DNA from: Planctomycetota bacterium
Lineage (GTDB): Bacteria > Planctomycetota > MHYJ01 > JACQXL01 > JACQZI01
Length of the DNA: 57,545 nt
Direction: 5' to 3'
Assembly: GCA_016207825.1 (NCBI GenBank)
Contig: JACQZI010000030.1
Location: 1 to 57,545, forward strand
Below, piece after piece: positions 17,626 to 57,545 of the stretch. The notes below the pieces were generated by a model. It ran no database searches. It saw only the letters and a list, made by a program, of their open reading frames with translations, and was not told the DNA's origin. Each line of letters begins with the position of its first letter. Position 1 is the first letter of the stretch. Position numbers and translations under genes: made by a program.

Positions 17626-17639
17626 TGTTTTCCTGACTC

Positions 17640-18013: not shown

Positions 18014-18041
18014 TTGACAAACGCAAGAAAATATTTATATA
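18014..18041 (+). promoter_or_regulatory. Sigma70-type promoter of the glutaredoxin gene
   Basis: TTGACA (18014-18019), 16-bp spacer, TATATA (18036-18041) in an A/T-rich tract. The leader of about 20 nt carries AAGGAG before the ATG at 18070. Confidence 0.65.
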
Positions 18042-18069
18042 TATTGTATAACTTATATAAGGAGAATGT

Positions 18070-18300
18070 ATGAAACAAGTTAAGGTCTATTCGACCCCGA
18101 CCTGCCCCTGGTGCCGGAAGGCAAAAGAGTATCTGCAAAACAAGGGAATCCAGTTCGAGAATTGCGATGTCTCCTCTGACCGCGCCAAAGCCGATGAAAT
18201 GGTCAAATTAACCGGGCAGATGGGAGTTCCGGTAATCGTAATCGACAAGGAAATCATAATCGGTTTTGATACGGCCAAGATTGATAAATTGCTGTCTTAA
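18070..18300 (+). CDS. Glutaredoxin (NrdH/Grx-like)
   Basis: 76 residues. The thioredoxin fold starts VKVYSTPTCPWCRKAKEYL with a CPWC redox site, followed by DVSSDRAKADEMVKLTGQMGVPVIVID (cis-Pro in GVPVIV) and IIGFDTAKIDKLL. Typical of short glutaredoxins that reduce ribonucleotide reductase or act in thiol repair. AAGGAG precedes the ATG. It is followed by the amidase gene at 18338. Confidence 0.92.
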   Translation: MKQVKVYSTPTCPWCRKAKEYLQNKGIQFENCDVSSDRAKADEMVKLTGQMGVPVIVIDKEIIIGFDTAKIDKLLS

Positions 18301-18337
18301 TAAAACCACGTCCCTGAATAAATAAGGAGCTTGTGAT

Positions 18338-22131: not shown

Positions 22132-23108
22132 TGCTCTTACAAGTCCACTACCCGTTTTACATCATCTTTGTTGCCGTAATAATTCTCTTGATAATAAACC
22201 TGCTGATTGCCTTCCGGCGAATCCGGAAAAACATTCTTAAGCGAACGCTCACTGCTTCGCGCCTGGACAACAAAGCCTTATTTATTTCCGTCTTGTCAAT
22301 AGATGCTATCCTGATTTTATGCGTCCTTTACGGCCACTTGATTGAGCCGAACCTTGTGGAAATCAATTCATTCAGTTACACCTCTAAAAAGATAACCGGC
22401 CCGCCTGCCGGCGAGGCAGTCTCCCCTATCCGCATAGTCCATTTATCAGACTTGCATATTGAGAGCGAAGGTGAACGCGAGCTGACCGTGCCGGAGATGG
22501 TCAACAAACTCAATCCGCATATTATCGTCATAACCGGCGATTATTTAAACGAAGGGACGCCGGATGAACCATTGAAAAACTTCTTATCAAAACTGAAAGC
22601 GCCTTTCGGCATTTACGCGGTCAGCGGCAACTGGGATACGAAACACACTATGGCAGTCCTTAAAGAATCCGGCGTTACCATACTGGATAACCGTAAAATA
22701 ATATTGAATATCCACGGCTCGCAAATCAGCTTACACGGCATCTCCTGCCCGGGCGCCTGGTATAACCCGGCCAAAATGGTCGAGGAACTCGAACCGGAAA
22801 AAGAAGGGCTTAATATCCTGCTTTCCCACCTGCCGGATATCCTGCCTGATGTCAAGGAGGTGGGATTTGATTTCCTGCTTTGTGGGCATACGCACGGCGG
22901 GCAGGTAAGGATTCCATTTTACGGCGCGCTGGTGACCATCTCCAGATACGGCAAGCTCTTTGAAGCCGGCTGGTATAAATCCGGCGAGACAATGATGTAT
23001 GTTAACCGCGGAATCGGATTGGAAGGAATAAAACACGCCCCGCGTGTCAGGTTCTTGTGTAAACCGGAAATAATGCTCTTGGAAGTATCCGGAATGGCGC
23101 TCCCTTAA
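22131..23108 (+). CDS. Membrane-anchored metallophosphoesterase
   Basis: 325 residues. Two N-terminal membrane helices (about 8-28 and 48-70), then a calcineurin-like domain with VHLSDLHIES, VITGDYLNEG, VSGNWDTKH, LLSHLPDI and GHTHGGQVRIP, the full set of dimetal ligands. Architecture matches the YkuE/YaeI family that removes lipid-linked or nucleotide phosphates; substrate unknown. Residues about 90-99 (GPPAGEAVSP) are encoded by a palindromic repeat (22398-22427) and separate the membrane part from the catalytic domain. The start overlaps the stop of the PDZ lipoprotein, so the pair is translationally coupled. Confidence 0.9.
   Translation: MLLQVHYPFYIIFVAVIILLIINLLIAFRRIRKNILKRTLTASRLDNKALFISVLSIDAILILCVLYGHLIEPNLVEINSFSYTSKKITGPPAGEAVSPIRIVHLSDLHIESEGERELTVPEMVNKLNPHIIVITGDYLNEGTPDEPLKNFLSKLKAPFGIYAVSGNWDTKHTMAVLKESGVTILDNRKIILNIHGSQISLHGISCPGAWYNPAKMVEELEPEKEGLNILLSHLPDILPDVKEVGFDFLLCGHTHGGQVRIPFYGALVTISRYGKLFEAGWYKSGETMMYVNRGIGLEGIKHAPRVRFLCKPEIMLLEVSGMALP
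22398..22427 (+). repeat. Palindromic repeat inside phosphoesterase CDS
   Basis: GGCCCGCCTGCCGGCGAGGC is a near-palindrome like GCCCGCCTGACCGGACGGGC at about 23230 in the following intergenic repeat. It lies in frame and adds about ten residues. Confidence 0.55.
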
Positions 23109-23127
23109 GATTAAACTTAACATCACC

Positions 23128-23350
23128 GATTGCGGGACGGGATTCGGGGACACCCCTCTGGCGATGACGCCCGATTATGCTGACGTAGGGGCAGCCGATA
23201 ATAGGAACCTTCGGCAGAGTGGGGCGAAAGCCCGCCTGACCGGACGGGCAGGCAGGAATCCATCCCGCCGAGGCGGGACTTTATCTGACTGGATTCTCGC
23301 TGGAGTTTATCCCGCTGGACTATAGTGACAAGCGGGGCGGGAATGACAGT
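23128..23350. repeat. Composite of palindromic dispersed repeats
   Basis: Consecutive palindromic blocks: GCGGGACGGGATTCGGGGAC, GCCCGCCTGACCGGACGGGC, ATCCCGCCGAGGCGGGA, and a GCGGGAATGACA end. The phrases recur at 54330-54378 and in aspS. It is non-coding and directly follows the phosphoesterase gene. Confidence 0.7.
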
Positions 23351-23543
23351 CAAAGTGATTCTCTTAGGACATTAATGTGGTGAGTATCAATTAATGTACA
23401 ATTCGGGGAAAATAGCCTGACCAATAGAGGGGATAGGGGTTTTGAAACGGGGGTAGGTAGGGTATATACCCCCCGCTTAATTGCTTATATTCATTTTAAC
23501 CCCTTAATTCTGCGTTATATTGAGTTTGGCGGGTTCTACAAGC
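23351..23543. other. Intergenic spacer before the first 21-bp array
   Basis: No gene seen. It contains GGGGGTAGGTAGGGTATATACCCCCC (split here as GGGGGTAGGTAGGG and TATATACCCCCC) at about 23451-23477, a C/G-run texture like the window start and the lead-in of the 22-bp array at 56976. Confidence 0.4.
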
Positions 23544-23774
23544 TTTCTATTCTCAGGGCTAAAACTTTCCGACCCAGGGATAACTTTTTCCGCCTTGGGG
23601 ACAAACCTTTCATCCCTTGGGCTGAACCATTCATCCTTTGGGATAAACCATCTATCCCGCGGGCTGAACCATTCATCCTTTGGGATAAACCATCTGTCCC
23701 ACGGGCTGAACCATTCAGCCTTAGGGATGAATCATTCATCCCGCGGTATAAATCATTCAGGGAAATTCGGACAC
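23544..23774. repeat. Tandem array, 11 units of exactly 21 bp
   Basis: Eleven consecutive 21-bp units without a single indel (23544, 23565, 23586 ... 23754). Consensus in two parts: C-A-T-T-C-ATCCC then NNGGGATAAAC. Each unit has a dyad (ATCC...GGGAT) at its centre. Odd and even units alternate GGGATAAAC and GGGCTGAAC. Because 21 is divisible by 3 and units lack stops, frames stay open on both strands, but there is no SD and no family resemblance, so I treat it as non-coding. It lies between two convergent genes. Confidence 0.9.
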
Positions 23775-23902
23775 TTCCTGTTTTTCTTTGAGTAATATAC
23801 CCCTCCTACGGAGGATTATAACTTTTCGCTTAGTTACTGACAAGGGAAAAATCTTACTCTGTTTAATCGGTGTAATCCTGTTGTCTGTTAATTGGAATGT
23901 AT

Positions 23903-24763
23903 TTAGAATTGACTCGCGAATAACTCGCCTGCCCCGTAGGAACTGCGGACAAACGGGCCCGAAGCAATCGCCTTAAAACCTATTTCATATCCGGCTTTTT
24001 CGTAGCGCTTGAACTCATCCGGATGGACAAACCTTACCACGTCAAGGCATCTCTCATCCTTCTTGGGTTTCAGGTATTGCCCGATGGTTACCATATCGCA
24101 CCCGATTGCCTTTAAATCCGATAACACATTAATCACTTCTTCTTCCGTCTCGCCAAGGCCGAGCATCAAACCGGATTTAACGATTATATCAGGCGATATC
24201 TTTTTCGCCATGCCTAAAAGATTAAGCGAACGGTAATAATCCGCGCCGGGCCTGACTACCGGATAAAGCCGCGGAACGGTTTCAAGATTATGGTTAAAGA
24301 CATGCGGCTTGGCATTAAGCACTTCCTTCAACGATTCTTCATTGCCCTTGAAATCCGGAGTAAGCACTTCCACTTTCGCTTCCGGCTGGCCTTTACGGAG
24401 AGTTCTTATAGTCTCGGCGAAATGCCTGCTCCCGCCATCATGTAAATCATCGCGCGTTACCGAGGTGACCACCACGTGTTTTAATCCGAGCTTCCTGCTG
24501 ATTTCGGCGATGCGTTCGGGCTCGGCATGGTCAACCGGTTTGGGCGCGCCCCCATCAATAGCGCAGAAACGGCATGAGCGCGTGCAGGTATTTCCGAGAA
24601 TCAGGAAGGTCGCCGTTCCCTTGCCGAAACATTCCATCAGGTTCGGGCAACGGGCGCTTTGGCAGACTGTATGCGCGGAATGTTTTTCCAACAGCTGGTT
24701 TGTCTTAAGGCTTTCGCCCAAAGGAGGGGTTTTACGCTTAAGCCATTCGGGAAAATTACTCAT
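23903..24763 (-). CDS. lipA: Lipoyl synthase LipA
   Basis: 286 residues, normal length. Radical SAM enzyme inserting two sulfurs into octanoyl groups. The auxiliary cluster cysteines lie in TVCQSARCPNLMECFGKG and the radical-SAM CxxxCxxC in GNTCTRSCRFCAI; the C-terminal RSSY motif (PFVRSSYGAGE) is present. Other family blocks: VVVTSVTRDDLHDGG, NHNLETVPRLYPVVRPGADY, KSGLMLGLGETEEEV. It lies downstream of lipB and efp on the minus strand, separated from lipB by a repeat pair (24774-24904). Confidence 0.97.
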   Translation of the reverse strand: MSNFPEWLKRKTPPLGESLKTNQLLEKHSAHTVCQSARCPNLMECFGKGTATFLILGNTCTRSCRFCAIDGGAPKPVDHAEPERIAEISRKLGLKHVVVTSVTRDDLHDGGSRHFAETIRTLRKGQPEAKVEVLTPDFKGNEESLKEVLNAKPHVFNHNLETVPRLYPVVRPGADYYRSLNLLGMAKKISPDIIVKSGLMLGLGETEEEVINVLSDLKAIGCDMVTIGQYLKPKKDERCLDVVRFVHPDEFKRYEKAGYEIGFKAIASGPFVRSSYGAGELFASQF

Positions 24764-24773
24764 TCAAGGCCTC

Positions 24774-24904
24774 TTGCCACAGAGGCACAGAGAACACCGA
24801 GAAATGCAAAATCCTATAATAACTCTGGAATATCCGAACCTTGTCTTCTTTTCATAACTTTATTATAATAATTTCTCTCTGTGAACTCTGTGTCTCCGTG
24901 GCTA
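24774..24904. repeat. Inverted pair of CACAGAG-type repeats (MITE-like)
   Basis: The left arm at 24774-24804 (TTGCCACAGAGGCACAGAGA...) and the right arm at 24872-24904, which is its approximate reverse complement (...TCTGTGTCTCCGTGGC), enclose about 67 bp of A/T-rich DNA. Arm sequence matches the ends of the GxxExxY unit at 15771-16197, so this may be an emptied or non-autonomous copy. Confidence 0.65.
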
Positions 24905-24927
24905 ATTAGTAGTTTTTGCCGGAACCA

Positions 24928-25623
24928 CTAAAGCATCGCCACTTTTTGGGGAATATACGAAAGGTGCGTCTTTACCACCGTCGGCTCGACATCGAATATC
25001 TTATTATAACAACTGACGAACTCTTTCGTCACATCGCTCATCACCGGGTTCTTACCTGTCAGCTTTCCGATTGACGTAATCTTACAGCCGTTTATCCCGC
25101 AAGGGTTGATATAATTGAAATAATTCAAATCCGGATTGACATTCAGCGCGAAGCCGTGGTAAGTGACGCCTTTGGAAACGCGCACGCCGACAAATCCGAT
25201 TTTCTCATTATTCACCCAGGCGCCGATATATTTGGGCTTCCTCTCGGCTTTAACACCGAAGTGCTCCAGCGTTTGAATCATCGCTTCTTCCAGGAGCTCC
25301 ACATACTGGCGGATTGTTTTCTTATGGTATGCCAGGCTGATTATCGGGTAGCCGACCAGCTGCCCGGGCCCGTGATAGGTCACATCTCCCCCGCGGTCTA
25401 TTTTCCGTAAGGCAATCCCCTTCTTCTTCAGCTCGTCTTCGTTGACAAGAATATTTTTGGCGTTTCCGTTCCTGCCGACTGTTATGACCGGAGGATGTTC
25501 CAGTAATACCAGGTAGCTGTCCTTACCTTTATGCTCCCTGATTCGCTCGACCAGCTCGAACTGGAAAGATAATGCCTCGTCGTAAGGGATAAGTCCCAGT
25601 TTAAATACCGTGCATTGCTTCAT
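24928..25623 (-). CDS. lipB: Octanoyltransferase LipB
   Basis: 231 residues. It transfers octanoyl from ACP to lipoyl domains, supplying LipA. Signature RGGDVTYHGPGQLVGYPI, the LLEHPPVITVGRNG block, the catalytic Cys in NPCGINGCKITS and Lys in NNEKIGFVGVRVSKG. Start MKQCTVFKLGLIPYDEAL is family-like. It sits between efp (33 bp upstream) and lipA, a plausible efp-lipB-lipA operon. Confidence 0.96.
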   Translation of the reverse strand: MKQCTVFKLGLIPYDEALSFQFELVERIREHKGKDSYLVLLEHPPVITVGRNGNAKNILVNEDELKKKGIALRKIDRGGDVTYHGPGQLVGYPIISLAYHKKTIRQYVELLEEAMIQTLEHFGVKAERKPKYIGAWVNNEKIGFVGVRVSKGVTYHGFALNVNPDLNYFNYINPCGINGCKITSIGKLTGKNPVMSDVTKEFVSCYNKIFDVEPTVVKTHLSYIPQKVAML

Positions 25624-25656
25624 TTCTAAACCCTAAATCAAAAAGGAATCCGGAAA

Positions 25657-26235
25657 TCAGAATTTATTTCCGCCTTCCCTGACTCTTTCGAGATATTTGC
25701 CTTCGCGCGTATCCACGCGGATGACCTCGCCGTTTTCCACGAAAGGCGGCACCTGGATGATAATCCCTGTCTCGACCTTTGCCGATTTATAAACATTGGT
25801 GACCGTGGCGCCTTTAAGTCCCGGCTCGGTTTCTATGACTTTCAAATCAACCGTATTGGGCATCAGGATGCTGATGGCTTCCCCGTCGTAATAATTCACC
25901 AGCACTTCGGTATTCGGTTTTAAATAGCCAAGACCATCGCCGATAACCTCCTTGTTAAGCATTATCTGGTCGTAGGTCTTAAGGTTCATAAAGACGAAAT
26001 GTTCGCCGTCCTGATAAAGGTATTCCATGGCGATGCCTTCGACAAAAACCTGTTCCACTTTATCTTCGGAGCGGAAACGGTTCTCTTTGACATGCCCGAG
26101 TTTCAGGTGGCGCATCTTGACCTGCACCATCGCCCGCCAGTTGCCGGGCGCGACGTGCTGGTAATCCATGACGACGTACGGTTCGCCTTCGAACTTGATA
26201 ACCATTCCTTTTCTGATATCCGTTGAACTTATCAT
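25657..26235 (-). CDS. efp: Elongation factor P
   Basis: 192 residues. EF-P relieves ribosome stalling at polyproline. Domain I MISSTDIRKGMVIKFEGEPYVVMDYQHV, then the tip loop APGNWRAMVQVKMRHLKLG, OB domains II and III, and the C-terminal RVDTREGKYLERV. The tip position that is Lys or Arg in modified EF-Ps (KPGKG) appears to be Asn (APGNW), so the lysylation and rhamnosylation routes would not apply. No epmA, epmB or earP is in the window. A good promoter lies at 26267-26294; the start lacks an SD. Confidence 0.95.
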   Translation of the reverse strand: MISSTDIRKGMVIKFEGEPYVVMDYQHVAPGNWRAMVQVKMRHLKLGHVKENRFRSEDKVEQVFVEGIAMEYLYQDGEHFVFMNLKTYDQIMLNKEVIGDGLGYLKPNTEVLVNYYDGEAISILMPNTVDLKVIETEPGLKGATVTNVYKSAKVETGIIIQVPPFVENGEVIRVDTREGKYLERVREGGNKF

Positions 26236-26266
26236 AAACTATTTCTATAGTGACGAAAGGCTATAG

Positions 26267-26294
26267 ATTATATGATTAATTAAAACCAAGTCAA
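26267..26294 (-). promoter_or_regulatory. Sigma70-type promoter of efp-lipB-lipA
   Basis: Minus strand: TTGACT (26294-26289), 16-bp spacer, TATAAT (26272-26267). The leader of about 24 nt holds no evident SD. Confidence 0.8.
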
Positions 26295-26305
26295 GAAAAT
26301 ATTCT

Positions 26306-26346
26306 CACCGCAAAGACGCAAAGAAAAACACGAATTTCACGAATGG
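26306..26346. repeat. CGCAAAGACGCAAAG-type dispersed repeat
   Basis: CACCGCAAAGACGCAAAG followed by CACGAATTTCACGAAT. A related copy, CACCGCAAAGACGCGAAG, occurs at about 54191-54208. Non-coding. Confidence 0.55.
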
Positions 26347-26364
26347 AACAAATCAGACGAATTA

Positions 26365-26880
26365 TTAAAACCGGTTTTCTATGACGATATCTTTCAATTC
26401 TTTTCTCGGCTTGGGCGCGGGGGTTTCATCCGGGAAGCCGAGCGGCGTCAACGCAACCACCCGCAGATTAGACGGCACGTTCAAAATCTTCCTGACATCA
26501 TTCTCGTTAAACGCGCCTATCCAGCAGGTGCCTAATCCTTCTTCCGTAGCGGCGAGCACAAGGTGCTCCATGGCTATCCCGATATCCAGAACCATGCTCG
26601 TCATATAACCGCCCTGCTTCTGGTAAGATTCGGCATCCGAGCCGCAGGCAATAATTGCAACCGGCGCTTGGATAAAATATTTCTGCCCCTTGCAGGCATC
26701 GACCAGCGCCTCGCGGATTTTCTTATCCTTCACCACGACAAAACGCCAGGGCTGTCCGTTCTTGCCGGAGGGCGCCAGACGCGCGGCTTCCAATACATTC
26801 ATCAGCTTTTCTTCCGGAACCGAATCGGCTTTATAATTCCTTATACTCTTACGCGTTTTGATAATTTCGTAGATATTCAT
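26365..26880 (-). CDS. Nitroreductase family protein
   Basis: 171 residues. FMN-dependent nitroreductase fold: N-terminal YEIIKTRKSIRNYK, RLAPSGKNGQPWRFVVV (FMN-binding), AIAMEHL-like helix IGIAMEHLVLAATEEGLGTCWIGAF and C-terminal GFPDETPAPKPRKEL. Physiological substrate not assignable. AAGGAGG lies 8 nt before the ATG at 26880, whereas the ATG nine codons upstream has no SD. A repeat pair directly upstream (26902-26977) separates it from aspS. Confidence 0.9.
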   Translation of the reverse strand: MNIYEIIKTRKSIRNYKADSVPEEKLMNVLEAARLAPSGKNGQPWRFVVVKDKKIREALVDACKGQKYFIQAPVAIIACGSDAESYQKQGGYMTSMVLDIGIAMEHLVLAATEEGLGTCWIGAFNENDVRKILNVPSNLRVVALTPLGFPDETPAPKPRKELKDIVIENRF

Positions 26881-26901
26881 TATTTCACCCTCCTTATAAT
26901 T

Positions 26902-26977
26902 AGCCACTGAGGCACAGAGGACACAGAGTAAGAACTATAATTATTTTTCTCTCTGAGCGCTCCGTGGCTCTGTGGCA
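26902..26977. repeat. Inverted CACAGAG-type repeat pair overlapping the end of aspS
   Basis: The left arm AGCCACTGAGGCACAGAG and the inverted right arm (GAGCGCTCCGTGGCTCTGTG) are separated by about 20 bp. The right arm encodes the last residues of AspRS (ATEPRSAQREK), so the stop codon of aspS lies inside the element. Confidence 0.65.
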
Positions 26978-28785
26978 GAAATTGATTGTATCCCCAATTC
27001 TTTCAACTGTTTCTCATCCACTTCACTCGGCGCATTGGTCATCAGGCACCTTGCCTGTGTGGTCTTGGGGAAGGCAATCACATCGCGGATGGAATCCAGG
27101 CCTAATAGCAGCATTACCATCCTATCCATTCCGAGCGCAATCCCGCCGTGCGGCGGCGCGCCGTATTTTAATGCCTCCAGAAGGAATCCGAATTTCATAT
27201 TCGCATCCTCAGGCGTAATCTTTAAGAGGTTGAATATCCTCTGCTGCAGCTCGGTCGTATTGATACGGATGCTTCCACCGCCCAATTCTGTCCCGTTCAG
27301 AATAACATCATACGCCTTTGCCTTGGCTTCCAAAGGCTTTTCTTCCAGATTCGCCATGGATTCATCCGTCGGCGAGGTAAAAGGATGATGGGTGCTCGTC
27401 AACTGCTTGTCTTCTTTACTATATTCAAACAGCGGGAAATTCACAACCCAGCAGAATTTATAGTCATCGCGCTTGATTAATCCTAACTTACCGCCCAGAT
27501 AAACCCTGACTGCAGAAAGCGCGGCGTTAACGATAGAATCTAACCCGGCAACAATCAGGATTAAATCACCCTCTTTGGAACCGGCCTTGGCGATGATTTC
27601 CTTCTGTAGCTCCGGCGAAAAGAACTTGGCAACCGGTCCGGTCAAGGCGTCCTTTTCCAGCTTGAACGGAACCACCCCGGCCGCGCCGTATTCCTTGGCG
27701 ACTTCGGTGATTTTATCTATATCCTTGCGTGAGAAGGCAGCGCATTTCTCGGCATTAAGGCATTTGACTATCCCGCCCGACTGTATTATTTCCTTAAAGA
27801 CCTTGAATTCGCTCTTCCCCGCGATATCCGTAATATTATGTAAGAGCATCCCGAACCGCAAATCCGGCTTATCCGTCCCGTAAGAGCCCATCGCTTCTTT
27901 ATAATCCAGCCGCTTGAACGGAATCTCTATCTTCTTATCAGCCCCGCCTCCGTCCCGCAAGGCGGGACTTCGGGGACTTCGCTGCAGTTCAGCCTTTTCA
28001 AAGACCTCGACCAGCAGGCCTTCTATCAGATTGATGATATCATCCTCTTTGATAAAGGACATCTCGATATCAAGCTGGGTGAATTCGGGCTGGCGGTCGG
28101 CGCGCAAATCCTCATCGCGGAAACAGCGGACTATCTGGTAATATTTATCCATCCCGGCAACCATCAGGAGTTGCTTGAATAATTGCGGTGACTGAGGAAG
28201 CGCGAAGAAATGTCCGGGGACGGTGCGGCTGGGCACGAGGTAATCCCGCGCGCCTTCCGGTGTGCTCTTAGTGAGAAACGGAGTTTCTATATCAAGGAAA
28301 CCCTGCTTATCCAGATAATTCCTGATAGCCTGCGTTATCTTATGGCGCATGATAAAGCACTTCTGCATCTCGGCGCGCCTGAGGTCAAGGTAGCGGTATT
28401 TTAAGCGGATATCCTCCGCAGGCAGTTTATCTATTTCATCGAGCATAAACGGAGGCGTCTCGCTTTTGGCAAGAATCGTAAGCTCATTGGCAAAGACCTC
28501 TATCTCACCTGTCGCCATTTTGGGGTTGACCATACCGTCCGGGCGCTTATTGACCGTGCCTTTTATGAGCGCGACGTATTCGGGCTTGAGTTGTTCGGCT
28601 AATTTATGGACGTCTTTATTCCGTTCGGGGTTGAATACCACCTGTGTAAACCCGTAGCGATCGCGCAGGTCTATGAAGATAAGCCCGCCGTGGTCACGGC
28701 GCGTCTTCACCCAGCCGGCTAAGGTAACGTCTTGCCCGACTGCCTTGGCATTAAGCTCTCCGCAAGTGTGCGTCCGGTAATTCAT
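26941..28785 (-). CDS. aspS: Aspartyl-tRNA synthetase
   Basis: 614 residues, bacterial type with GAD domain. OB-fold anticodon domain (NYRTHTCGELNA...GWVKTRRDHGGLIFIDLRDR), class II motif 2 (CFRDEDLRADRQPEFTQLDIE) and motif 3 (GIALGMDRMVMLLLG). The ATG at 28785 is the family start and lies 7 nt after a -10 box (28793-28821), implying a leaderless mRNA. About 15 residues (SPRSPALRDGGGA) before IPFKRLDYKEAMGSYG are encoded by an in-frame palindrome (27941-27984), and the last eleven residues by another repeat. With GatCAB present it may be non-discriminating. Confidence 0.97.
   Translation of the reverse strand: MNYRTHTCGELNAKAVGQDVTLAGWVKTRRDHGGLIFIDLRDRYGFTQVVFNPERNKDVHKLAEQLKPEYVALIKGTVNKRPDGMVNPKMATGEIEVFANELTILAKSETPPFMLDEIDKLPAEDIRLKYRYLDLRRAEMQKCFIMRHKITQAIRNYLDKQGFLDIETPFLTKSTPEGARDYLVPSRTVPGHFFALPQSPQLFKQLLMVAGMDKYYQIVRCFRDEDLRADRQPEFTQLDIEMSFIKEDDIINLIEGLLVEVFEKAELQRSPRSPALRDGGGADKKIEIPFKRLDYKEAMGSYGTDKPDLRFGMLLHNITDIAGKSEFKVFKEIIQSGGIVKCLNAEKCAAFSRKDIDKITEVAKEYGAAGVVPFKLEKDALTGPVAKFFSPELQKEIIAKAGSKEGDLILIVAGLDSIVNAALSAVRVYLGGKLGLIKRDDYKFCWVVNFPLFEYSKEDKQLTSTHHPFTSPTDESMANLEEKPLEAKAKAYDVILNGTELGGGSIRINTTELQQRIFNLLKITPEDANMKFGFLLEALKYGAPPHGGIALGMDRMVMLLLGLDSIRDVIAFPKTTQARCLMTNAPSEVDEKQLKELGIQSISATEPRSAQREK
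27941..27984 (-). repeat. Palindromic dispersed repeat inserted in frame in aspS
   Basis: Contains TCCCGCAAGGCGGGAC (27953-27968), identical to 54348-54363 in an intergenic copy. Its length keeps the reading frame and adds about 15 residues at a surface-loop position of AspRS. Confidence 0.75.
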
Positions 28786-28792
28786 AAAACCT

Positions 28793-28821
28793 AATCTATA
28801 AACATTTCGCCGATAAGTCAA
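28793..28821 (-). promoter_or_regulatory. Promoter of aspS, predicted leaderless
   Basis: Minus strand: TTGACT (28821-28816), 17-bp spacer, TAGATT (28798-28793), then only 7 nt to the ATG. Transcription should begin at or next to the start codon. Confidence 0.7.
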
Positions 28822-28844
28822 AATAAAATCGGTAACAATTACAT

Positions 28845-28872
28845 TTGACCTGTAATGAAAGGATGGTATACT
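28845..28872 (+). promoter_or_regulatory. Promoter of the 28882 gene, predicted leaderless
   Basis: TTGACC (28845-28850), 16-bp spacer, TATACT (28867-28872), then 9 nt to a GTG at 28882. It overlaps the upstream in-frame ATG (28855), which therefore could not be on the transcript. Confidence 0.65.
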
Positions 28873-28881
28873 TATCTTATC

Positions 28882-29367
28882 GTGAAAAAAGTCATTATTG
28901 TATCAGGCATCATTATAGCAGCATTATTTGTGTTTATCCTCGTCACCCTTATTATAAATCCATGGTCACATATAGCTTGTACAGAACATTACTTTGATAT
29001 CAATAGCGGGAAAATCAAGATAGAGAATTATTTTTTATACATAAAAACAAAGGAACAAATCTGCGACACAAAATTCTCCTTGTTATATAAGAATTTTTAT
29101 CCAGAGGCAAAAGAGCCTAAGTGGCACGCAACAAATACAACTTCGCCAATGATTAACTATGGGCCTCACTATGCTTTTCATGGGGCAGCCGCTTGGGCAG
29201 CATTGTTAATTCATTACTTTGAAAACAAAAAGGATATATATGAAAACAGGAAAAAAGAAGTAGTAAAAGGATTTATAGACGCTTTGAATTCAGAGAATAG
29301 TGATAATAAAGCTTACGAATATGTGAAAAAAGTAATGGAGGAAACCTCAAGCCCAGATGTGAAATAA
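28882..29367 (+). CDS. Hypothetical single-pass membrane protein
   Basis: About 161 residues from a GTG start chosen from the promoter at 28845-28872; an ATG at 28855 would add nine residues. N-terminal anchor (VIIVSGIIIAALFVFILVTLII), then a soluble domain with little family signal (NYGPHYAFHGAAAWAALLIHYF). It is more A/T-rich than its neighbours. It ends before a terminator-like hairpin (29466-29504) and the second 21-bp array. Function unknown. Confidence 0.55.
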   Translation: MKKVIIVSGIIIAALFVFILVTLIINPWSHIACTEHYFDINSGKIKIENYFLYIKTKEQICDTKFSLLYKNFYPEAKEPKWHATNTTSPMINYGPHYAFHGAAAWAALLIHYFENKKDIYENRKKEVVKGFIDALNSENSDNKAYEYVKKVMEETSSPDVK

Positions 29368-29465
29368 AGAAGAGGCGCCCAAACTTAACGCCCTCCCACC
29401 TGTTAGCACCTTCAATGACCCTATTAGCTCAAAAGACCCAATTACCCATAGGCAAGGGTTATTGC

Positions 29466-29504
29466 CCCCTCCGACCTACCTCGCCGGTAGGCGGGAGGGG
29501 TTTT
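29466..29504 (+). terminator. Terminator-like hairpin
   Basis: CCCCTCC-GA-CCTACC pairs with GGTAGG-C-GGGAGGGG across a 5-nt loop, followed by TTTT. It stands 100 bp after the stop of the gene at 28882-29367 and just before the second 21-bp array. Confidence 0.6.
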
Positions 29505-29519
29505 AAGCACCTTTTAGGT

Positions 29520-29813
29520 GGTTTTAACCCATGTCGGAACCGTTCAGCGCATGCGATAACTCATTCAGCTCATGCGATATACCGTTCAGCGCATGCGATA
29601 ACCCGTTCAGCGCATGCGATAACCCAATCAGCGCATGCGATATACCGTTCAGCGCATGCGATGAAACATTCCAAGCATGCTACGAAACATTCATCCATTG
29701 GAATAACTCATTCATCCCTGGGTCTAAGCCCTTGCGACCTTGGTCGGAAACCTTCAGCCCGTGGATTGAGCCCTTCGCTCCCCAGTATAAACCGTTCGTT
29801 CCTCCCCGCGTGG
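29520..29813. repeat. Tandem array, about 12-14 units of exactly 21 bp
   Basis: Units begin at 29541, 29562, 29583 and so on through 29792 with no indel; weaker units extend to 29520 and 29813. The first seven share C-R-TTCAGC-GCATGC-GATA with a central GCATGC palindrome; later units drift to CCATTGG, CCCTGGG and similar but keep a dyad core and period. The 5' part of each unit (CATTCA) matches the array at 23544-23774. Open frames here are a by-product of the 21-bp period. It lies between convergent genes. Confidence 0.9.
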
Positions 29814-29863
29814 GCGGGACTCCCTGCCTGTGGCGAGGCTCGTCCCGGCGAACGTCGGGGCGG
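29804..29863. repeat. Palindromic dispersed repeat
   Basis: CCCCGCGTGGGCGGGAC followed by GGCGAGGCTCGTCCC and CGAACGTCGGGGCGG. Related to the block that encodes the PgeF C-terminus (34832-34860). It immediately follows the 21-bp array. Confidence 0.55.
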
Positions 29864-29918
29864 CAAAGGGGCTAAGGGGTAGGTAATGCCATTGTTAGAA
29901 TGCTTAAGCGTTGAAATC

Positions 29919-31106
29919 CTACTCATACCGCAGGGCTTCCATGGGGCTAAGGCGCGCGGCGCGGACCGCCGGAAAGACTCCGGCAACCAGTCCGATTCCG
30001 GTGCAGAAAATAAGAGCGGAGACTATTATCCACCAGGGAATCCAGACCGGCATTCCAATCAGCGTTAATACCACAAAGGAAACCGCACTGCCGCAACCGA
30101 CCCCGATAATGCCGCCGATGATGCCGATGAATCCGGCTTCCAGAAGGAACTGGCGGCGGATATCCGAATCTTTGGCGCCCAGCGCCTTCCTTATCCCGAT
30201 TTCACGCGTCCGGTGCGCCAGAGACCCGAGCATGATATTGGTTATCCCTAAGGCACCCACGAGCAATGACAATGCCGCCATTGCCACGATAAATCCGGTC
30301 AGGGCATTGATAATCGTCCCCAGTATGGAAAGCATTTCATCCTGCGTGTGGAAATGGAAATCATCCTCGCCCTTATGGCGCTTCATCAGCATATCCTTAA
30401 TCTTTTCGCGGATGATTGGCAGGTCTTTTTCCTCTTTTGCCCAGACAACCATTTCCAGTATTTTCTTGGTTCCTAAAAGGCTTTGGGCAGTAGTAATGGG
30501 GATAAGAATGATATCATCCATATTGAAACCGAGCATCTCGCCTTTTTCCTCCATCTCGCCGATGCAGGTAAATTTGGTTGTGCCTATCCAGATTTTTTCC
30601 CCTATAGGGCTAAAGGCGCCGAAGAGCTTATTCCGGATGGTCTTGCCAAGGACGCAGACCCTTCTGCGGCTGTCCACGTCGATATCGCTGAAGAATTTAC
30701 CTTCGGCAACTTTATGGTTTACCAGACGCGGGTAATTGGCAGTGAGGCCCTGGACCATGGTCCGGTCTTCCTTGTTGCCGAACCGGGCGTTGCGGGAACC
30801 GATGACAACCGGGATGACGTCTATTACTTCTGGTATCCTATTTTTGACCTGTTCGGCATCGTCATAGGTCAGTTTGCTGGGTTCTATGGGAGGGTCCATC
30901 TCGCCCGGATGGACAACCAGGGCATTGGAGCCGAAACCCATGGATTGAATCTGCGCGGTAATAAAGCCCTGGGCGCTCTGCCCCATTGAAACGAAGATGA
31001 TGGTAATGCCGATTCCGACCGCGATTCCGACCATGGTCAGGACGGAGCGGAACTTGTTCAGAAGAAGCGTCTGAACGGCGATATTAAAATTTCTCGGCAG
31101 TTCCAT
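29919..31106 (-). CDS. MacB/FtsX-type ABC transporter permease
   Basis: 395 residues. N-terminal membrane helix (SVLTMVGIAVGIGITIIFVSMG), a periplasmic MacB_PCD domain (about 45-265), then three C-terminal helices with the FtsX motif ALGITNIMLGSLAHRTREIGIRKALGA, and the terminal VAGVFPAVRAARLSPMEALRYE. Together with the ATPase at 31178 and the adaptor at 31943 it forms a MacAB-like tripartite or lipoprotein-export system; substrate unknown. Confidence 0.93.
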   Translation of the reverse strand: MELPRNFNIAVQTLLLNKFRSVLTMVGIAVGIGITIIFVSMGQSAQGFITAQIQSMGFGSNALVVHPGEMDPPIEPSKLTYDDAEQVKNRIPEVIDVIPVVIGSRNARFGNKEDRTMVQGLTANYPRLVNHKVAEGKFFSDIDVDSRRRVCVLGKTIRNKLFGAFSPIGEKIWIGTTKFTCIGEMEEKGEMLGFNMDDIILIPITTAQSLLGTKKILEMVVWAKEEKDLPIIREKIKDMLMKRHKGEDDFHFHTQDEMLSILGTIINALTGFIVAMAALSLLVGALGITNIMLGSLAHRTREIGIRKALGAKDSDIRRQFLLEAGFIGIIGGIIGVGCGSAVSFVVLTLIGMPVWIPWWIIVSALIFCTGIGLVAGVFPAVRAARLSPMEALRYE

Positions 31107-31113
31107 AGTTTTT

Positions 31114-31173
31114 AGCCACCGATTAGACAGATTTATTTAAAACATTAGCATTTAATCAGTGAAATCTGTGGCT
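31114..31173. repeat. Inverted dispersed repeat (AATCTGTGGCT type)
   Basis: Arms AGCCACCGATTAGACAGATT (31114-31133) and AATCAGTGAAATCTGTGGCT (31154-31173) are imperfect inverted repeats. They sit between the ABC permease and ATPase genes inside one operon. Confidence 0.6.
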
Positions 31174-31177
31174 CTCT

Positions 31178-31867
31178 TTATATAAATCTCCCGTCTTTCA
31201 TATTGATAACCCGGTTGCCGTATCTATGGACATCCGGATTATGGGTAACCAGGAAAATAGTTACCGATTTACGGTTTAGTTCCGCAAAGAAGTCCATAAT
31301 ATCCCCCCCGCTTTTGGAATCAAGATTTCCCGTTGGCTCATCTGCCAGGATAAAGGTGGGGTTATTGATAAGGGCGCGGGCAATGGTTACGCGCTGCCTT
31401 TCACCGCCGGATAACTGGGCGGGTTTATGGGAAAGGCGGTGTTGCATATTGACGTCCTTAAGCAATTTCAGGGCGCGTTCCTCGCGTTCATCCCTGGCGA
31501 TATCCGCGTAAACCAGCGGCAGCTGGACATTCTGGAAGACGTTAAGCTCAGGCAGGAGATTATACATCTGGAAAACAAACCCGATTTTGGAGTTTCTTAA
31601 ATCCGCAATCCGGTCTTTATCCAGGCTGGAAACATTGATGCCATCCAGGAGTATATCACCACCGGAAGGCATGTCCAGGCATCCGATAAGACTAAGCAAG
31701 GTTGATTTACCGCAACCAGACGGGCCGGAAAGGATGACGAATTCGCCGCGTTTGATGGTAAGGTTTATATCTTTAAGCGCCTCGACCTTAACCGTGCCAA
31801 TATCATAATTTTTGGACAGCGCTTTGGTTTCAACAACGGGTTTGTCATCTACCCCCATATACTCCAT
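31178..31867 (-). CDS. MacB/LolD-type ABC transporter ATP-binding protein
   Basis: 229 residues. Walker A GPSGCGKSTLL, Q-loop FVFQMYNLLPELNVFQNV, signature LSGGERQRVTIARAL, Walker B FILADEPTGNLDSKSG, and the H-loop LVTHNPDVH. Sequence is typical of the MacB/LolD ATPase branch that drives mechanotransmission by FtsX permeases. It lies 75 bp after the adaptor gene and 71 bp before the permease. Confidence 0.95.
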   Translation of the reverse strand: MEYMGVDDKPVVETKALSKNYDIGTVKVEALKDINLTIKRGEFVILSGPSGCGKSTLLSLIGCLDMPSGGDILLDGINVSSLDKDRIADLRNSKIGFVFQMYNLLPELNVFQNVQLPLVYADIARDEREERALKLLKDVNMQHRLSHKPAQLSGGERQRVTIARALINNPTFILADEPTGNLDSKSGGDIMDFFAELNRKSVTIFLVTHNPDVHRYGNRVINMKDGRFI

Positions 31868-31942
31868 ATGATAACATCTTCTAAAATAATACTATGTATA
31901 ACTTGTCATTCCGTGCCTGATACGGAATCTAAGCATTTTTTA

Positions 31943-33079
31943 CTATGGAGTAACGGGGTGAACATTAACCCTTTTTCCATCCTTCAGTTTTTCCAATTCG
32001 GTTATGGCAACGGTTTCGCCATCTTTCAAGCCTTCGGTTATTTCGACTTTTTCTGATTCTTTTATGCCTACTTCGACATTGCGCTTTTGGGCATAGCCGT
32101 CTTTTACGACATAGACATAGAACTTCCCGCTTTCGGAAAGGACGGCTTCACGTGGAATCACAAGGACATTTTCCTTGGGCTCGATAATGATATCCGCGTA
32201 AAGGGACATTCCAGGCCTCAGGCATTCGGGATATTCCTGCATTTTTACTATGCCGCGGAAGATACGCTCTTCACCGATTGTCGAAACATCTATCCGCTCG
32301 CCTTTGAGTTCGGCTTCGGCGATAATCTGGTCCAAGACGCCTTTGAATTCCGCACCCGGGCAACCGTCAGCCGTAATGCGGACGCTTTGCCCTATTTTAA
32401 CATCGCCGATATCGGAATCCGCGATTTCTATTTCGATATAAGCGCTTTTCGGATTGACGATGCGGACCAGAGGAGTTCCCGGCACCACGGTTTCGCCTTG
32501 TTTTTTATAGACAATAGTTATAACACCGTTAATCGGGCTTTTGATAGTTGCTTTATCCAGAAGGTCTTTGGCGGATTTCAAAAGCGCATTTAACCCGTCG
32601 TTTGCCAGCTGGGCGGTTTCATAGTTTTTCCGGGCGCTTTTATAGGAAATTTCAGATGCCTCCAGCTTATCTTGAGAAACCGCGCCTTCTTTTTCCAGGG
32701 ATTGCATACGCTCGAAATCAGTTTTGGTTTTCTCGTAAATCGATTTCAGGTCTTTTATCAGCTTCTCATTGGCAGATAGTTCTGTTTCAGCCTGGGTAAC
32801 GCGGCTGGAAAGCTGGGTTTTTTCCACCTCGGCAATGATATCGCCTGCATTGACCGGTTTGCCTTCCTCCACCAGAAGTTTTTCTATCTTGCCGGAAACT
32901 TCCGAGCTGATATTGGCATCTTCTTTGGTCCTGACCAAACCGTCTTGAGGGACAATTTTGCTGATTATCCCCCGTTTAACCACGGTAGATTGGACAGTAA
33001 CCGGCCACATAGAATACACTACGCCAAGTGCAACAAGGATTACCGCGATGACTGCAATGATTAATCCTATCTTTTTCAT
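31943..33079 (-). CDS. MacA/HlyD-like periplasmic adaptor
   Basis: 378 residues. N-terminal membrane anchor (IGLIIAVIAVILVALGVVYSM), split lipoyl/barrel-sandwich domain (DANISSEVSGKIEKLLVEEGKPVNAGDII ... INGVITIVYKKQGETVVPGTPLVRIV), a coiled-coil hairpin (about 92-180) and C-terminal beta-barrel and MP domains. It is first in the macA-ATPase-permease operon. The ATG lies 9 nt after a -10 box, so the mRNA is predicted nearly leaderless. It should bridge the ABC pump and an outer-membrane channel; no TolC gene is present in the window. Confidence 0.92.
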   Translation of the reverse strand: MKKIGLIIAVIAVILVALGVVYSMWPVTVQSTVVKRGIISKIVPQDGLVRTKEDANISSEVSGKIEKLLVEEGKPVNAGDIIAEVEKTQLSSRVTQAETELSANEKLIKDLKSIYEKTKTDFERMQSLEKEGAVSQDKLEASEISYKSARKNYETAQLANDGLNALLKSAKDLLDKATIKSPINGVITIVYKKQGETVVPGTPLVRIVNPKSAYIEIEIADSDIGDVKIGQSVRITADGCPGAEFKGVLDQIIAEAELKGERIDVSTIGEERIFRGIVKMQEYPECLRPGMSLYADIIIEPKENVLVIPREAVLSESGKFYVYVVKDGYAQKRNVEVGIKESEKVEITEGLKDGETVAITELEKLKDGKRVNVHPVTP

Positions 33080-54410: not shown

Positions 54411-54438
54411 TTGACATTCCGTTTATGTGTGGTATACT
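54411..54438 (+). promoter_or_regulatory. Sigma70-type promoter of the zinc-ribbon membrane protein
   Basis: TTGACA (54411-54416), 16-bp spacer, TATACT (54433-54438). Leader about 24 nt with AAGGAG before the ATG at 54469. Confidence 0.75.
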
Positions 54439-54468
54439 ACCGCTAACTCTTATAAAAGGAGATACGAT

Positions 54469-55098
54469 ATGGAACAACAAAAACAAGCCAGCCAAGAACC
54501 ACAAACACCCCCACCGCCTAAAATGACAGGCACTTGTTTTGGATGCAAAAAGGAAATGCCGAAAACAAACCTGACTTATATTAACGGGCAACCTATTTGT
54601 ATAGGATGCAAGACCAATCTCCTCAATGAAATAGCCGCCCAAAAAGCCACTGGAGCCGATATCATGACCGGCACCTTAGGCGCGGCTGCCGGCGCGATTA
54701 TTGCCGGAGGACTTTGGGGACTGATGGTCATCTTCACTAATTACGAAATCGGGTTTGCGGCCATTGGGGTCGGCATACTGGCTGGCTATGGCGCATTACT
54801 CGGCGCAGCTAAAAAGAGAGGGCTTGAACTCCAGATAATCGCGTCCATCGCCTCCATCACCGGCATTGCCATTGGTAAATATATCTCTTTTTACCATTAT
54901 GTCACGAAAGAATTCGAGGGGGTTTCCTTTTTCAGTTCTGATACAATATCTGTATTTTTCTCCACGACATCGGAATGGTTTTCCGGCTATGATATCCTCT
55001 GGGTAATTCTGGCCGTAGGCGCAGCGTATAAGATACCGGGAATGCTTAAGCTGGAATTAAAAGGGAAAACAGCCACATTACAAAAACCCAATGATTAA
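54469..55098 (+). CDS. Zinc-ribbon small membrane protein
   Basis: 209 residues. N-terminal Gln/Pro-rich tail, then a single zinc ribbon (GTCFGCKKEMPKTNLTYINGQPICIGCK), then about four hydrophobic segments (IMTGTLGAAAGAIIAGGLWGLM, AIGVGILAGYGALLGA, IIASIASITGIAIG, LWVILAVGAAYKI). A smaller cousin in layout of the B-box protein at 13704. AAGGAG 9 nt before the ATG at 54469. Function unknown. Confidence 0.75.
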   Translation: MEQQKQASQEPQTPPPPKMTGTCFGCKKEMPKTNLTYINGQPICIGCKTNLLNEIAAQKATGADIMTGTLGAAAGAIIAGGLWGLMVIFTNYEIGFAAIGVGILAGYGALLGAAKKRGLELQIIASIASITGIAIGKYISFYHYVTKEFEGVSFFSSDTISVFFSTTSEWFSGYDILWVILAVGAAYKIPGMLKLELKGKTATLQKPND

Positions 55099-55145
55099 AC
55101 GCTGCAAGATAAAATAAAGGGTTAACTGATTTAAGGATTTTAAAA

Positions 55146-55796
55146 ATGTCTGAGGGCGTATTCGCGTTATTGATGATAGCGGGCATCTTGTTCTTCGCCT
55201 TTATCATCGCCCCGCCTAAAAGGAAGGATGAGGAAGAGGATAATCCCGCTTCACTGCGTTCCGGGGACGTCGCTTCGCTCCGGGACGGTGAGAAATTGGT
55301 CACGCTGACTGAAAACCTGCATCCGGCGCAAGCCGAATCAATTCAAGCCTATCTTAAATCAGAAGGAATTGAAACATATCGTCATGATAAAAAACCATCC
55401 TTAAAAAACCCATTGGTAGTAACCGAAACCACTCTAATGATAAAGAAAGACGACCTTGAAAAGGTTCTGAGCCTGATGAAACAACAACACGCCCCTACCA
55501 CCACTGACATAATCGGGCGTCCCCGCCCCATTCTGCGTAATGGGACTCCCAATAATCGGGTGTCCCCGAATTCCGCCTTGCGTGATGAGCGGGGAAGCGA
55601 AGCGGATGGGGAACAACAAGAGATACACGGTTGCGCCATGCAAAAGCCGGATAAAGAAGCGGCAGCTATAGTAGTCGACCAGAAATACATCGAATTCAAC
55701 TGCCCCCTATGCCAAGCAAAGGTATCGTTCCCGGAAAGCTTTAAGGGACAGGAAGAACAATGCCCGTTTTGTTTAAAGAATATTATTGTTTCATAA
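55146..55796 (+). CDS. DUF2007-like membrane protein with in-frame palindromic insertions
   Basis: 216 residues. N-terminal membrane helix (FALLMIAGILFFAFIIA). A DUF2007-like domain (about 55-115: KLVTLTENLHPAQAESIQAYLKSEGIETYRHDK ... TTLMIKKDDLEKVLSLMKQ) and a C-terminal zinc ribbon (NCPLCQAKVSF...EQCPFCLKN). Two segments are repeat-derived: ASLRSGDVASLRDGE (about 37-51, near 55234-55290) and the longer block around IIGRPRPILRNG, NNRVSPNSALRDERGSEADGE (about 122-157, 55508-55612). They read like low-complexity linkers. The gene follows the 54469 gene by 47 bp. Confidence 0.7.
   Translation: MSEGVFALLMIAGILFFAFIIAPPKRKDEEEDNPASLRSGDVASLRDGEKLVTLTENLHPAQAESIQAYLKSEGIETYRHDKKPSLKNPLVVTETTLMIKKDDLEKVLSLMKQQHAPTTTDIIGRPRPILRNGTPNNRVSPNSALRDERGSEADGEQQEIHGCAMQKPDKEAAAIVVDQKYIEFNCPLCQAKVSFPESFKGQEEQCPFCLKNIIVS
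55234..55290 (+). repeat. Palindromic repeat in frame in the DUF2007-like gene, copy 1
   Basis: TCCCGCTTCACTGCG-type block followed by CGTCGCTTCGCTCCGGGACG. Its length keeps the frame. Confidence 0.6.
55508..55612 (+). repeat. Palindromic repeat in frame in the DUF2007-like gene, copy 2
   Basis: Contains TAATCGGGTGTCCCCGAA (55553-55570), identical to the intergenic copy at 13679-13696, and TGGGACTCCC as in 37051-37060. The reading frame runs straight through it. Confidence 0.75.
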
Positions 55797-55836
55797 GGTT
55801 AAAACAACGGGATTAAACCGATTAAACGGAGAGGAC

Positions 55837-55868
55837 TCACCACAGAGACACAGAGGACACTAAGAGAG
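55837..55868. repeat. CACAGAG-type dispersed repeat, single arm
   Basis: CTCACCACAGAGACACAGAG then GACACTAAGAGAG. It directly abuts a TATAAT (55869-55874) upstream of the next gene. Confidence 0.6.
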
Positions 55869-55883
55869 TATAATCAAAACATT

Positions 55884-56384
55884 ATGTTCAAGAGAGAAGC
55901 AATTATTAATTTAATCTATTTATTAGCCCCTATCTTATTAGCCGTCATTATCGCGTTATTGCTTCCATTAAGATTTAATCGCCAGAGCCTTATAGAAAAC
56001 TCACCAAACACATCAACTGATTCCATAGCATCTTCAAATATTAACGAAAGAGCTACAGAACCGGCATTTAAAGGAATGGAATTATATAGCTGGAAAAATG
56101 AAAATGATGAATGGTGTTTTGCTTTGATGTATGGAACAAATCGTGATAAATCCTACGATGAAATCACTTCCAAAGAGAACACAATTGTTGGAATCCCTAA
56201 CCTAAAAGAAAAGCTGAAATTACTCGCTCTCGGAGAGCAATTGTTTTGGTTTAATTCTTTACGTAATCCACCAGCAGATGCAAAATATAAATTAGCTTAT
56301 CCCCCAGAAATTGTTATTAAAGATATTAAGAATTATTGCGATGACTTAAATATTAAAATGCATGACGGCAGTATCAATCGGTAA
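55884..56384 (+). CDS. Hypothetical single-pass membrane protein
   Basis: 166 residues. N-terminal anchor (AIINLIYLLAPILLAVIIALLLPL), then a soluble domain (AFKGMELYSWKNENDEWCFALMYGTNRDKSYDEI) without a family I recognise. More A/T-rich than its neighbours. Its ATG is 9 nt after a TATAAT that abuts a CACAGAG repeat; no good -35 is seen and no SD. Confidence 0.55.
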   Translation: MFKREAIINLIYLLAPILLAVIIALLLPLRFNRQSLIENSPNTSTDSIASSNINERATEPAFKGMELYSWKNENDEWCFALMYGTNRDKSYDEITSKENTIVGIPNLKEKLKLLALGEQLFWFNSLRNPPADAKYKLAYPPEIVIKDIKNYCDDLNIKMHDGSINR

Positions 56385-56442
56385 CAAAAACATATCAGCT
56401 TAATCAGCTTACAAAATCTTTAATAAGAAAAGGAGGGAAGCT

Positions 56443-56790
56443 ATGAAAAACGGAAAATGGGTAACCGGGGTATTAATCGGAATTGCTCTGGGAGCGATTC
56501 TTACAGGGAGCCTGGGGAAAGTTATCGGCGCGCCGGAAAAAGATACCGAATACAAATGCGGCAGATTCCAAATCTTCCAGGGAACGGTAAACTTAAACAA
56601 CGAAGTTGATAAGAAAATCGAACCGATTCCCTTGGTCTTTTTATTGGATTCCTGCACCGGCGAGGTAAAATACTATTATATGATGCTGAGCAAGAACGAT
56701 ATGATGGTCGGGGAATGGCTACCCACGCGGTATAACATTCAGATGGTGCGACCGTCAACATCCCCGATTCCCGTGCCGGCATCGAAGTGA
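56443..56790 (+). CDS. Hypothetical membrane-anchored protein
   Basis: 115 residues. N-terminal hydrophobic segment (WVTGVLIGIALGAILTGSL) then a short mature part (YKCGRFQIFQGTVNLNNEVD, FLLDSCTGEVKYYYMMLS). SD AGGAGGG 7 nt before ATG. A palindromic repeat (56792-56851) begins right after the stop. Function unknown. Confidence 0.6.
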   Translation: MKNGKWVTGVLIGIALGAILTGSLGKVIGAPEKDTEYKCGRFQIFQGTVNLNNEVDKKIEPIPLVFLLDSCTGEVKYYYMMLSKNDMMVGEWLPTRYNIQMVRPSTSPIPVPASK

Positions 56791-56851: not shown

Positions 56852-56975
56852 AAACTAAATCAAAGCACGGAAAACGAATTAAATGCGGTTTAAAACGTAT
56901 ATATTAATTCGCAAATCAATTAAATGCGGTTTTAGGCTGAGGGGGGTACTGCCCCCCACCCCCTAATTACATCCC

Positions 56976-57239
56976 CCCGGCCTATAAGATACTTCTCCCC
57001 GGTCCATAATACTTATCTCCCCGGTCTACAATATACCTGCCCCCGGACGACAATATACCTCTCCCCGGTCCATAATATACCTGCCCCCGGTCTATAATAC
57101 TTATCTCCCCCGTCTATAGTATACATGCCCCCGGCCTACAAGATAGCTCTCCCCCGTCCATAATACTTATCTCCCCGGTCTGTGATATACTTCTCCCCGG
57201 TCGACAGTATCCCTCTCCCTGGTCTATAATATACCTGGG
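56976..57239. repeat. Tandem array, 12 units of exactly 22 bp
   Basis: Twelve consecutive 22-bp units with no indel (56976, 56998, 57020 ... 57218). Consensus CCCGGTCTATAATA followed by TACCTCTC; the core GGTCTATAATATACC is an imperfect dyad. Units differ at many positions but never in length. The same C-run texture appears at the left edge of the window. No SD or family; non-coding in my view. Confidence 0.9.
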
Positions 57240-57460
57240 CCGGGTGGATAAAGTTAATGGGGGAGGATAAAATTTTACCCCTTGCCTATCGGCAGGGACT
57301 CCTTATTAATTCCGATTTCATCGGGAAACTATGTGGAGCGGGGCAGAGGAGTAAAGAACACAGAGAATGTGAAGGTGATCCTTTATGGAATTCGGTATGG
57401 CGCCCCCCTGCTTTGTTGAATAATTATTTTGAGGAGTGATATAAAAGTTAAAGTAAAACA
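57240..57460. other. Intergenic spacer with repeat remnants
   Basis: A 60-codon frame (57257-57439) has no family and contains phrases of the palindromic repeats (CGGCAGGGACTCC, GGAGCGGGGCAG), so I do not call a gene. Nothing else recognised. Confidence 0.4.
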
Positions 57461-57523
57461 GGGTCATAGACGAAAATACTTGTAGAGAACAGTATTTTTA
57501 TAAGGAGAACCCGTCTATGACCC
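57461..57523 (+). promoter_or_regulatory. Hairpin covering SD and start codon of a gene at the right edge
   Basis: GGGTCATAGACG (57461-57472) is a perfect inverted repeat of CGTCTATGACCC (57512-57523). Inside it AAAATACT (57473-57480) pairs with AGTATTTT (57491-57498). AAGGAG (57502-57507) and the ATG (57517) lie in or next to the structure. It could be a transposon end or a translation-controlling leader. Confidence 0.6.
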
Positions 57524-57545
57524 CTGATTTATTATGTGAATCGGC
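57517..57545 (+). CDS. Partial gene at right edge (start only)
   Basis: ATG with AAGGAG 9 nt upstream, reading MTPDLLCES before the window ends. Too short to assign. Its start is inside the hairpin at 57461-57523. It might be a transposase if the inverted repeat is an IS end. Confidence 0.35.

Follow-up and report, generated by a model that had tools for sequence, protein, structure and literature searches.

The window, meaning the whole stretch of DNA analysed here (contig C30, 57,545 bases, of the 2.89-Mb, 42-contig planctomycete genome G000), carries near its right end a tandem array of twelve 22-bp units that is flanked by a leader and a tail (Table 1). The original prediction had placed twelve units without an indel at 56976-57239. 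Unit number, length and absence of indels were borne out both by TRF (period 22, 12.4 copies, 0% indels) and by a unit listing from 56973 that gave twelve 22-mers ending at 57236; the location thus stands, but its register was displaced by 3 bp. The C-rich linker described there (CTCCCC/GCCCCC) is also present. TRF scores for this array were higher at periods of 66 and 88 bp than at 22, and therefore three- or four-unit blocks have probably been duplicated. The entire unit recurs without spacer, which is not the arrangement of a CRISPR, and no open frame runs through 56973-57236 as a coding repeat would require. The four ORFs of 54427-56790 matched no Pfam family.

Table 1. Array-related features of the window, and orthologous loci at which an array of the sister species is missing from G000
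Feature	Position	Strand	Remarks
Whole dispersed element	56931-57262	+	Similarity to L004 begins and ends here; flanks unmatched
Leader	56940-56972	+	GGGGGGTACTGCCCCCC hairpin, then ACCCCCTAATTACAT; end block of G/C runs, as usual for 22-bp arrays
Inverted-repeat left arm, imperfect	56959-56982	+	Pairs with 57238-57261 at 17 of 24 positions
Tandem array, 12 units of 22 bp	56973-57236	+	Consensus CTCCCCGGTCTATAATATACCT; 0 indels
Tail, GGGCCGGGTGGATAAAGTTAATG	57237-57262	+	Exact match only twice in genome
Inverted-repeat right arm	57238-57261	-	Partner of 56959-56982
21-bp array of the palindromic second class, 8 units	23583-23750		Dyad z 5.9
21-bp array, 6 units	29538-29663		Directly after tRNA-Leu gene 29469-29541; dyad z 0.8
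Dispersed G/C-run module, left contig edge	1-274		Copies in L127 and L070
Orthologous loci without the array in G000	L135 vs L063; L174 vs C37; L165 vs C1		L165 vs C1 compared by position only

A search of the same genome revealed one other locus of this family, C5:83161-83478 (L004 5129-5504), which has 14 units and the same layout of leader, units and tail without spacer. Over 315 bp, leader and tail included, the two copies differ by 50 substitutions and no indel, and their units are 84% identical on the main diagonal as against 69-79% off it. The units hence match in order and the array was copied whole, a difference of two units notwithstanding. Among 23 genomes of the class the family was found at these two loci only, and searches of phages, plasmids and viral contigs returned no match, on which ground a phage, plasmid or viral origin was rejected. 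The stem of the leader hairpin consists of six G-C pairs, with a fold z of only -1.4. Leader and tail form the inverted repeat of Table 1 (p 0.005, a figure inflated by G/C-run composition; rank 3 of 27 tails), but with only four of 27 22-bp arrays at p < 0.05 inverted-repeat ends were rejected as a general feature. Further right, the contig end holds an inverted repeat at 57459-57526 (CAGGGTCATAGACG ... CGTCTATGACCCCTG), and positions 57399-57489 match the end of a sister-species contig (L147) at 97% identity, resembling the end of an insertion sequence.

Unit symmetry and boundary blocks

REP/BIME sequences are short intergenic palindromes, and the window unit had been credited with a dyad, GGTCTATAATATACC. 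This is exact in one of the twelve units and in none of the C5 paralogue. Complementarity at the centre of this dyad (51% of the seven pairs) is the highest among 22 odd centres, but across units the best dyad of the array reaches only z = -1.0 (p = 0.87 against column-permuted controls), and the array is thus not of the palindromic, REP-like kind. The 22-bp units tested folded no better than shuffles, and permutation, together with folding of the window array under DNA parameters, led to the rejection of dyads and hairpins in units of this class. When columns were permuted within arrays and all 45 arrays were kept, dyads proved frequent in 21-bp arrays (median z 2.15, n = 15; five at p < 0.01) and lacking in 22-bp arrays (median z -0.17, n = 30; one at p < 0.01), a difference with a Mann-Whitney p of 8e-5. 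There are two separate classes, one of 21 bp and palindromic, the other of 22 bp, non-palindromic and set beside a G/C-run block. REP/BIME is nearest to the former, the latter being without dyad; RAYT-driven REP was rejected, the genome having a single partial Y1_Tnp hit. The prediction that the window array extends an array class to a different length therefore holds, with the qualification that the arrays at 23583-23750 and 29538-29663 belong to the 21-bp second class.

Each 22-bp unit comprises one G block and one C block (first-harmonic z 5.2 and 7.1, in counts that omit arrays of fewer than five units and two probably coding 21-bp arrays, L118 15731 and L136 435). Several arrays show further organization. 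The 21-bp array after tRNA-Leu (29469-29663 with the gene) has GCGCATGCG cores, and similar hairpin series lie beside other 21-bp arrays in L112 and L145. Higher-order structure is seen in L121 4571-4843, where 5-unit blocks are duplicated, and in L133 15127-15280 and 15346-15557, where dimers alternate. Different arrays adjoin within a single intergenic region in L093 12478-13278, L112 4072-4435 and L133 15127-15557, with 21- and 22-bp arrays mixed in L093 and L133.

Runs of at least five G or C were found within 80 bp of 26 of the 30 22-bp arrays and 7 of the 15 21-bp arrays, against 11.4% of randomly chosen places. The 8-mer GGGGGGTA occurs in the flanks of ten of the 30 22-bp arrays where 0.09 would be expected, and in these flanks enrichment is at least hundredfold for words like GGGGGGTA and CCCCACCC. 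Adjacency of this kind favours an account in which a polymerase or repair footprint of about two turns duplicates 21-22 bp at stalls on G/C-run hairpins and leaves functionless arrays, and arbitrary unit sequences, the higher-order periods of 66 and 88 and rapid turnover agree with it. Such structure-driven slippage is nonetheless unlikely, as it does not explain why indels are avoided after an array's birth or why two symmetry classes exist; moreover, the G/C-run regex is not enriched genome-wide (G000 has 54 occurrences per Mb, controls have 289), yet the controls, where it is commoner, have no 22-bp arrays.

Sixteen places with such a block have no called array nearby. In five of them (L067, L120, L126, L228 and L070) lag 22 is the best lag on one side, and these are probably decayed arrays; in L122 lag 22 is also best on one side, but a called array lies about 170 bp away. 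Lag 22 is not the best in the remaining ten, two of which adjoin known 21-bp arrays. The left edge of the window (50-265) had been suspected of being another array. It is not one, lag 22 not being outstanding there, but the hunch of kinship gains some support because the L070 copy of the left-edge module abuts a decayed 22-bp array.

Period and length across genomes

An ungapped diagonal scan for periods of 8-60 was applied to sampled stretches, with low-complexity calls excluded by rule and three arrays called at 42 or 44 bp taken as twice 21 or 22. With these doubles included, 46 of the 51 arrays called in G000, G001 and G004 have a period of 21 or 22, against two of 24 outside these genomes. 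G000 contributed 12 of 13 and 7 of 10 in two samples, with a further array at 44. In G001 the scan gave 11 of 13, alongside one at 42 and one at 44, and 7 of 9 in a second sample, and all six arrays called in G004, which lies in another family but the same order, have such a period. In the remaining material the counts were none of six in 38 loci from other taxa, one of eight in genomes of the class and one of five in genomes of the phylum (both exceptions being 21 bp), and none of five in small samples from the fragmented assemblies of six further genomes in the order. No array was called at any period in shuffled copies of the samples.

A second scan, which took the best lag between 13 and 40 in 250-bp windows, placed lag 22 at the top in 87 of 148 passing windows of the three genomes (36 of 70 in G000, 36 of 59 in G001 and 15 of 19 in G004) and in none of 34 outside. 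The top lag was 21 in 26, 14 and 4 of these windows, respectively, and in seven elsewhere, five of which came from other genomes of the order. Array density is about 25 per Mb in the less biased own-genome sample (16 in about 627 kb). Samples chosen by search hit comprised L004 and, in G001, contigs C88, C13, C24, C86, C12, C11 and C96 and further C22, C26, C69, C73, C80, C85 and C44, so that density in G001 is biased upward. Among named organisms the closest relative is Candidatus Brocadiia isolate DeMMO3_52 (L005), of the same genus, whose genome is represented as G002 and also, with identical places, as G001; in longer blocks of syntenic DNA, G000 and the relative are about 85-88% identical. 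The original prediction had staked itself on the period being kept in relatives, and 22-bp arrays are indeed abundant in the own genome, the sister species and a genome from another family of the order.

Unit length is held more closely than sequence. Five pairs of array copies differ by 247 substitutions and no indel, where about 17 indels would be expected at the ratio of intergenic syntenic DNA between G000 and G001 (370 substitutions and 25 indels in 2,654 aligned bases), a contrast that is partly selected because the scan which found the arrays was ungapped and an indel can bring a local alignment to an end. The array-free module at 1-274 of the window differs from its two copies by 100 substitutions and nine indels. 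Within the 45 arrays alignment to consensus gave 1484 substitutions and ten indels; whole-unit differences are excluded from the indel counts. Units of different 22-bp families have a mean best-rotation identity of 10.46 of 22, against a null of 10.27 (with the same arrays omitted as for the harmonics), the exceptions being copy pairs and a few families alike at 15 of 22 positions, among them the window family with the G001 array of L131. With pairwise identity at the null a common ancestral unit of the 22-bp families was rejected. Near-absent indels and chance-level unit identity together mean that length is kept and sequence is not, and fixed spacing with varying letters suggests that spacing is what the cell reads. 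Homogenisation alone could also keep length. Conservation inside units lacks an 11-bp face periodicity, such as a ligand binding one face might leave, and a pattern of contacts on one face was rejected for that reason.

Placement relative to genes and turnover

Most arrays are intergenic, and three 22-bp arrays lie within ORF calls that are possibly spurious. Where both neighbours of a 22-bp array are known (20 arrays), 15 pairs are tandem, four convergent and one divergent; the rarity of divergent placement (1 of 20 against 27 of 136 gene pairs) is suggestive only, as is the closer placement to the end of the upstream gene (median 156 bp) than to the start of the downstream one (226 bp; p 0.054). 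C exceeds G on the sense strand in 8 of 25 arrays, so the arrays have no strand preference with respect to transcription; the strand and distance counts omit the two probably coding 21-bp arrays.

These data bear on the proposal that TATAAT-like cores repeated every 22 bp act as a tandem -10 cluster or RNA-polymerase trap. Exact TATAAT occurs in two of the twelve window units and five times in the 14-unit paralogue, far from a sigma-70 cluster with TATAAT in most units and a -35 at 16-18 nt, and the units of other 22-bp families are unrelated; together with the single array between divergent genes and the unbiased strand this tells against either role, and a promoter cluster was rejected on the scarcity of TATAAT. 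A promoter scan gave five sites against 1.4 expected, two of them wholly inside the window array (57047-57076 and 57201-57230, the latter with 11 of 12 matches), and there may be a weak promoter at the right end of this array. More broadly, the arrays might be transcribed RNA elements or terminators, working as hairpin arrays, Rho-binding C-rich sites or promoter clusters. Apart from the promoter-like sites, this idea draws on the position of most arrays downstream of a gene, on the C-richness of the window array on the sense strand (skew 0.5) and on several hairpin-capable 21-bp arrays. It is very improbable given that the 22-bp units tested fold no better than shuffles and that strand is unbiased, and no Rfam family matched; a Rho-type C-rich site or transcript-level role was rejected on the lack of strand bias.

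At all three orthologous loci that could be anchored on both sides, an array of the sister species is missing from G000, in intervals that differ otherwise as well; the remaining orthologue comparisons are one-sided or reach a contig edge. Neither target duplications nor clean empty sites were found at the compared loci, and the C5 neighbourhood in G001 reaches a contig edge. G001 is incomplete and lacks most orthologues of window 20001-32000. In L174 of G001 an open frame of at least 5461 codons (3617-19999) lies to the right of a 22-bp array, and a dispersed repeat of about 60-95 bp occurs within about 500 bp of an array at window 23134-23225, L166 8948-9042 and L134 3774-3834, in two species.

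In anatomy the closest known system is BrickBuilt of Porphyromonas gingivalis, a minisatellite-MITE which, in the portions of its description used here, has 23-nt units, 19 copies and internal indels of 0-6% (PMC4596501). Like the window element it is intergenic and dispersed and consists of a leader, imperfect tandem units of about two turns and a tail, but it has one unit sequence and small inverted-repeat ends (PMC4596501), while the arrays here comprise many unrelated families at exactly 22 bp with a G/C-run hairpin end and almost no indels. By analogy the arrays could be passengers of a MITE mobilized by a transposase in trans, their fixed period reflecting common descent. The outline of leader, 22-bp array, tail and weak inverted repeat, the two to three dispersed copies in several array families and the absence of arrays at orthologous loci all speak for this. 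We regard it as rather unlikely: the families share no unit sequence, so descent alone would have to keep length and lose all sequence, inverted ends are not general, no target duplication was seen, and the genome offers one partial Y1 transposase hit.

Spacing as a candidate signal

Among wider comparisons, the parts consulted of a survey of 261 species describe prokaryotic satellites and minisatellites which, like the arrays here, are non-coding tandem repeats of 10-30 bp, species-specific and in some cases dispersed, but for which those parts describe no fixed period of 21 or 22 bp, the short repeats being mostly related to microsatellites (Subirana and Messeguer, 2019, PMC6749651). The anammox planctomycete Kuenenia stuttgartiensis MBR1 has 260 short tandem repeats, again in a planctomycete, for which the portion of the source used gives no period or sequence (PMC5854607). 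In open-licence literature no description of such fixed 21/22-bp arrays was recognised.

The window array forms the core of a small non-coding repeat element and belongs to a lineage-specific 22-bp class bounded by a G/C-run hairpin block. The arrays are most likely copy-dispersed DNA platforms selected for two-turn spacing, to which a putative factor would bind. As a main explanation, held tentatively and with somewhat less than even confidence, we propose that a small non-coding repeat element is copied, that its spacing is selected while its bases drift, and that it provides a platform for protein assembly. The window element has been copied as a whole to another locus, its G/C-run block possibly serving as the end or target used in copying. 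At the DNA level the array would act as a series of sites set at intervals of two turns of the helix. Each site would consist of a G/C block and an AT block, and a predicted protein could assemble side by side along the series. Spacing would be under selection, with the drifting bases presumably homogenised by duplicated blocks of units. Plasmid iterons are non-palindromic direct repeats about 22 bp apart that are read by spacing; unlike them, the arrays here are many per genome and have unrelated, family-specific sequences, and the window array, with no Rep gene found beside it and no plasmid or phage match, does not have the makings of a plasmid iteron origin.

A doubtful but conceivable extension of this explanation is a lineage-wide system that inherits only spacing, in which a two-turn ruler or spacing-reading protein makes or maintains dozens of sequence-free arrays in two symmetry classes, the 21-bp one palindromic and the 22-bp one directional. 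Its logic would be comparable to that of eukaryotic satellite arrays, in which the period is linked to the nucleosome. Tandem repeats in bacteria are commonly regarded as by-products of slippage with an arbitrary period. The arrays described here, about 25 per Mb, hold one of two periods despite drifting sequence and with almost no indels. Should the spacing truly be under selection, an unknown architectural or copying machinery would operate in these planctomycetes and read DNA through its geometry.
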